Shown here piece by piece: positions 33,620 to 35,016 of a stretch of DNA of 46,567 nucleotides (positions are counted from its first letter, which is position 1; each line of letters starts with the position of its first letter). The notes beneath the pieces were generated by a model, which worked only from the letters and a program-made list of their open reading frames with translations, had not been told where the DNA came from and ran no database searches. The stretch comes from an uncultured Actinomycetes bacterium (GTDB lineage: Bacteria > Actinomycetota > Actinomycetes > Actinomycetales > Microbacteriaceae): assembly GCA_903920435.1 (NCBI GenBank), contig CAIXMB010000143.1:1-46567 (forward strand), in the 5' to 3' direction. The position numbers and the translations under genes are program-made.

Positions 33620-35016
<1,397 letters not shown>

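Follow-up and report, generated by a model that had tools for sequence, protein, structure and literature searches.

Does a bacterium live with an amber codon inside its cysteinyl-tRNA synthetase gene, or does that codon exist in a deposited sequence alone? The question is raised by cysS of an uncultured Actinomycetes bacterium (Microbacteriaceae) in contig CAIXMB010000143.1 of GenBank assembly GCA_903920435.1, a stretch of 46,567 nucleotides that was analyzed as a whole and is called the window below. The cysteinyl-tRNA synthetase (CysRS) is reported to be essential in another actinobacterium, M. smegmatis (PMC4721953).

The interrupted cysS reading frame

Counted from GTG 33620, the cysS open reading frame is interrupted by one in-frame TAG at codon 345 (Table 1), as the initial annotation had noted. 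Past the TAG, 121 sense codons follow in the same frame up to TGA 35018-35020 (122 codons including the stop), with neither a second internal stop nor a frameshift. This TGA shares the letters ATGA with ATG 35017, an in-frame ATG of the next gene. The earlier statements that the rest of cysS is intact and that the gene overlaps rlmB by ATGA are thus borne out.

When cysS is read across the TAG, its product scores 443.4 bits against TIGR00435, whose membership threshold is a score above 340 bits, and therefore belongs to this family. The pre-stop part alone scores 377.6 bits (profile positions 2-329) and the post-stop part matches positions 350-464, i.e., the two parts are consecutive stretches of one family. 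The pre-stop part contains PF01406 (tRNA-synt_1e; 381.2 bits), which ends at residue 312. In the post-stop part, PF09190 (DALR_2; 44.4 bits) starts at the first codon past the TAG and is joined by PF23493 (CysS_C; 39.2 bits); both are above their cut-offs, and the DALR and C-terminal anticodon-binding domains are in the same frame as the catalytic part. Since the pre-stop part aligns to residues 3-324 of E. coli CysRS (1li5) and the post-stop part to residues 342-458, the TAG falls where the catalytic region joins the anticodon-binding region.

Table 1. Coordinates of cysS, its in-frame TAG, and neighboring features in the window
Feature	Coordinates	Strand	Basis
cysS pre-stop part, class I catalytic domain of cysteinyl-tRNA synthetase, 344 codons	33620..34651	+	TIGR00435, PF01406, 1li5 alignment
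In-frame TAG, codon 345, immediately 5' of the DALR anticodon-binding domain	34652..34654	+	34 aligned relatives, none with a stop here
cysS post-stop part, DALR_2 and CysS_C, 121 codons and TGA	34655..35020	+	PF09190, PF23493; dN/dS 0.027 versus L026
ATG, the closest in-frame start at which reinitiation could occur, 15 nt 3' of TAG	34670..34672	+	Conserved Met of AAMDDDL
rlmB-like gene, ATGA overlap with cysS stop	35017..36039	+	Name from the initial annotation
Upstream ORF	32366..33514	+	ORF reading of the window

By its appearance, we take the upstream ORF to be an ispD-ispF fusion. Two further ORFs, of 413 amino acids (33544-34785, plus strand) and 982 amino acids (32162-35110, minus strand), overlap cysS in other frames. 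They look spurious, as is usual at such G+C content; an automatic gene caller could choose them if cysS is broken.

The stop column and selection in relatives

We compared the gene with its counterparts in genome collections that hold one genome per species. All 26 other genomes of the genus examined carry a cysS without an internal stop. In a search of 398 genomes of the family, 386 matched at an E-value of 1e-100 and 12 had no match at this threshold; among the best 150 of the 386 matches by E-value, an internal stop was present in the genome of the window only and absent from the 149 others. An alignment of cysS was built from 34 relatives (24 of the genus, 5 of 15 genomes of the same order, and 5 of 80 further loci). 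None of the 34 has a stop in the column of codon 345. Asp or Glu occupies it in 21 of the 24 genus relatives and in 28 of all 34, the rest having Ala, Val, or Thr; the column permits different residues, usually acidic ones.

The closest relative (L026) is 91.9% identical at the protein level. Against it, dN/dS is 0.144 before the TAG and 0.027 after, the latter from 3 nonsynonymous changes in 267 sites and 30 synonymous changes in 93. The corresponding values are 0.145 and 0.088 against L016, and 0.257 and 0.19 against L024, again with no rise past the stop; on both sides, the values for L024 are above those of the other pairs among the four sequences. Residues private to the cysS of the window number four before the TAG and three after, one of these three being an alignment-end effect. 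Judged by these substitution patterns, the post-stop part is under strong purifying selection with no decay, and it would have been translated through nearly the whole history of the lineage. The pattern fits an error in the sequence or a very recent mutation, between which it does not separate, and speaks against an old pseudogene.

Copy number, decoding of TAG, and quality of the assembly

The assembly is a draft of 3,164,108 bases in 204 contigs and is 96.42% complete. A whole-genome search found a single cysS above cut-off, the one with the TAG, and no second copy above cut-off in these contigs. The next-best match to cysS, on contig C24, is MshC-like, with 477.7 bits for TIGR03447 versus 255.6 bits for cysS, and covers the CysS profile (466 positions) from 22 to 315. 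Its score is slightly below the TIGR03447 cut-off of 485.1, probably because the matched stretch of 304 residues was scored on its own. Likewise, none of the genus genomes examined has a second cysS over the family cut-off. No SepRS or SepCysS of the indirect pathway to Cys-tRNA was found above cut-off in the assembly; weak matches to sepS and SepCysS (18.9 and 19.3 bits) are far under the cut-offs, and sub-cut-off matches also occur in 11 and 12, respectively, of 14 control genomes.

Release factor RF1 is intact (467.2 bits, without an internal stop), and its protein shows the PAT and GGQ motifs. In a survey of reading frames, 11 of 26 from the window end in TAG; across the full sample the count is 75 of 179, next to 86 ending in TGA and 18 in TAA, a set in which a few frames may be spurious. 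A tRNA search with RF00005 gave 43 matches, 42 of them above cut-off, and ARAGORN read all 42; within this gapped assembly, none of the 42 has a CUA anticodon. A Leu tRNA with the anticodon written "tag" reads CUA codons and is therefore no amber suppressor. With TAG a common terminator, RF1 intact, and CUA absent among the 42 tRNAs, genome-wide recoding of TAG is rejected, in agreement with the earlier view that TAG serves here as an ordinary stop. The initial annotation had also proposed a second cysS elsewhere or a suppressor tRNA with a CUA anticodon; both were searched for, and neither turned up in the assembled contigs, whose gaps limit the two results.

On the 43rd tRNA match (contig C182, 23.6 bits, below cut-off), ARAGORN made no call. 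It is a degenerate tRNA-like stretch (C182:11009-11088, L159) with an anticodon loop resembling that of Thr(TGT), and a mobile element may have left it behind as a piece of a tRNA. Two tRNA-Arg(CCG) genes of equal score lie on different contigs (C105:3718-3789, L133, and C196:4050-4121, L134), which may reflect a duplication or slight contamination. At least four expected species, Phe(GAA), Asp(GTC), Glu(TTC), and Arg(ACG), are absent among the 42. An assembly gap is the probable reason, and the missing tRNAs thus point to unassembled stretches that could conceal a suppressor or a second gene.

The quality of the assembly was surveyed by setting 762,529 bases (24%) of the genome against genes from three relatives. 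A first, cruder pass over 129 genes flagged many spurious ORFs. In a second pass, 222 of 1150 frames from the relatives matched at 186 distinct places, some of them spurious ORFs, over 185,973 aligned bases, and a stop or a shift of frame was flagged in 16 rows, three of which are cysS. The 13 others were each inspected, and all of them fall either 5' of a plausible true start or within a spurious ORF; one of these rows runs antisense to an ORF containing MADSTFDIVSKVDQMEAENAVNQAAKE. Hence cysS, for the sake of which the window was chosen, is the sole interrupted gene in the 186 places, and no nonsense codon was found inside a gene in the 185 others. Applied to 66 gene comparisons of G004 and G013 versus G019, the same method gave two flagged rows, both near the start (position 16 of 805 and position 24 of 419). 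The survey excludes a badly damaged assembly and is compatible with an ordinary one. If the consensus error rate is assumed to be 1e-5, about 30 errors would be present in 3.16 Mb; because 129 of the 4185 possible single-base changes in cysS give a stop, about one of these errors is expected to be a nonsense codon.

Consensus error or real stop

Apart from the TAG, which is present in the deposited sequence, cysS is intact and under constraint, and the relatives examined have intact copies. Because the surroundings of the TAG look like a normal working gene, we conclude that it is probably one wrong base in the consensus, a sequencing or assembly error, which is the most economical explanation. 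No compensating feature was found when RF1, TAG usage, the 42 tRNAs, and RNA folding were examined. The TAG would then be a single-base artefact of the draft consensus (from a read, from polishing, or from a mixture of strains) that would have hit a codon which a single substitution turns into a stop. The organism's true sequence would be without the stop, and the cell would have an ordinary full-length cysS. An error had been listed first among several unranked options; it is now preferred, and the contender left is a genuine, recent mutation that the cell would tolerate through reinitiation or readthrough. Two points weigh on that side: the assembly, with no nonsense codon at the 185 other places, is not visibly error-ridden, and in-frame stops under purifying selection are reported to be widespread in bacterial genes, according to PMC7918605. 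Moreover, none of the tests made would tell a very recent real mutation apart from a consensus error, and on sequence alone the two are inseparable. As an error, the TAG matters for annotation only, where it might lead to cysS being recorded as a pseudogene or as two fragments. If real, it would show by what means a bacterium copes with a nonsense codon in the only CysRS gene it has, and would offer a natural test of split synthetases or leaky termination.

A real mutation relieved by reinitiation or readthrough is, the two routes taken jointly, unlikely. By the first route, to which we give a small chance, the stop would be real and recent and CysRS would be made in two pieces, a catalytic one of 344 residues and an anticodon-binding one of 116 residues. 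Ribosomes terminating 15 nt upstream would restart at ATG 34670, and the pieces would cooperate, or the catalytic part would suffice poorly by itself. The domain boundaries agree with such a split, PF01406 ending before the TAG and DALR_2 beginning just after it, as do the nearby in-frame ATG and the conservation of both parts; the span of the MshC-like match suggests that a related enzyme type manages without the rest. However, in the relatives this ATG is merely the codon of the conserved Met of AAMDDDL, no Shine-Dalgarno-like purine run is seen before it by eye, and no other genome of the genus examined has an interrupted gene. A limited literature search met no report of a nonsense-interrupted or split CysRS, the existence of one not being denied. 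It is improbable that we are looking at an essential CysRS split very recently, with termination and reinitiation within 15 nt and a second start site still unadapted.

Still less probable is the second route, a real stop at which low-level readthrough by a near-cognate tRNA would yield enough full-length CysRS. The constraint on the downstream frame is consistent with it, and in-frame stops with dN/dS below 1 are described in PMC7918605 as widespread and short-lived in bacteria. Against it stand an intact RF1 and the lack of a CUA anticodon among the 42 tRNAs, and the frequency of TAG as a terminator would make strong suppression costly. The RNA around and downstream of the stop shows no unusual fold in the two overlapping stretches compared with shuffles (z of -0.23 and -1.21), the downstream one (-0.23) folding no better than they do. 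Nor is the stop conserved, as looked for under readthrough: none of the 34 aligned relatives and none of the 26 other genus genomes has it.

Most doubtful of all is a real stop in a dead copy, with a second cysS or a suppressor tRNA in the unassembled part or on a missing element: the incomplete assembly and the four absent tRNA species leave room for it, but cysS is not relaxed after the TAG, the genus genomes examined have one copy each above the family cut-off, and SepRS and SepCysS are not above theirs.

Among known cases, the in-frame stops in conserved bacterial genes described in PMC7918605 are similar in that there is a single stop with purifying selection on both sides. The large-scale part of that study kept stops common to at least two species, to minimize artefacts; the cysS TAG, in contrast, occurs in one genome only, in data with one genome per species, and falls outside that two-species condition. 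In the resequencing of V. fischeri (PMC2330054), interrupted genes were spotted, as here, by comparison with an intact relative. There, 75 of the 82 resequenced targets proved to contain an error, a frameshift in the majority, whereas cysS is known from its consensus only. Compared with CysS itself (TIGR00435; E. coli structures 1li5 and 1u0b), the gene of the window differs by the TAG between the catalytic and DALR domains, and is alike in having both sets of domains, in the same order and at the normal length of the family.
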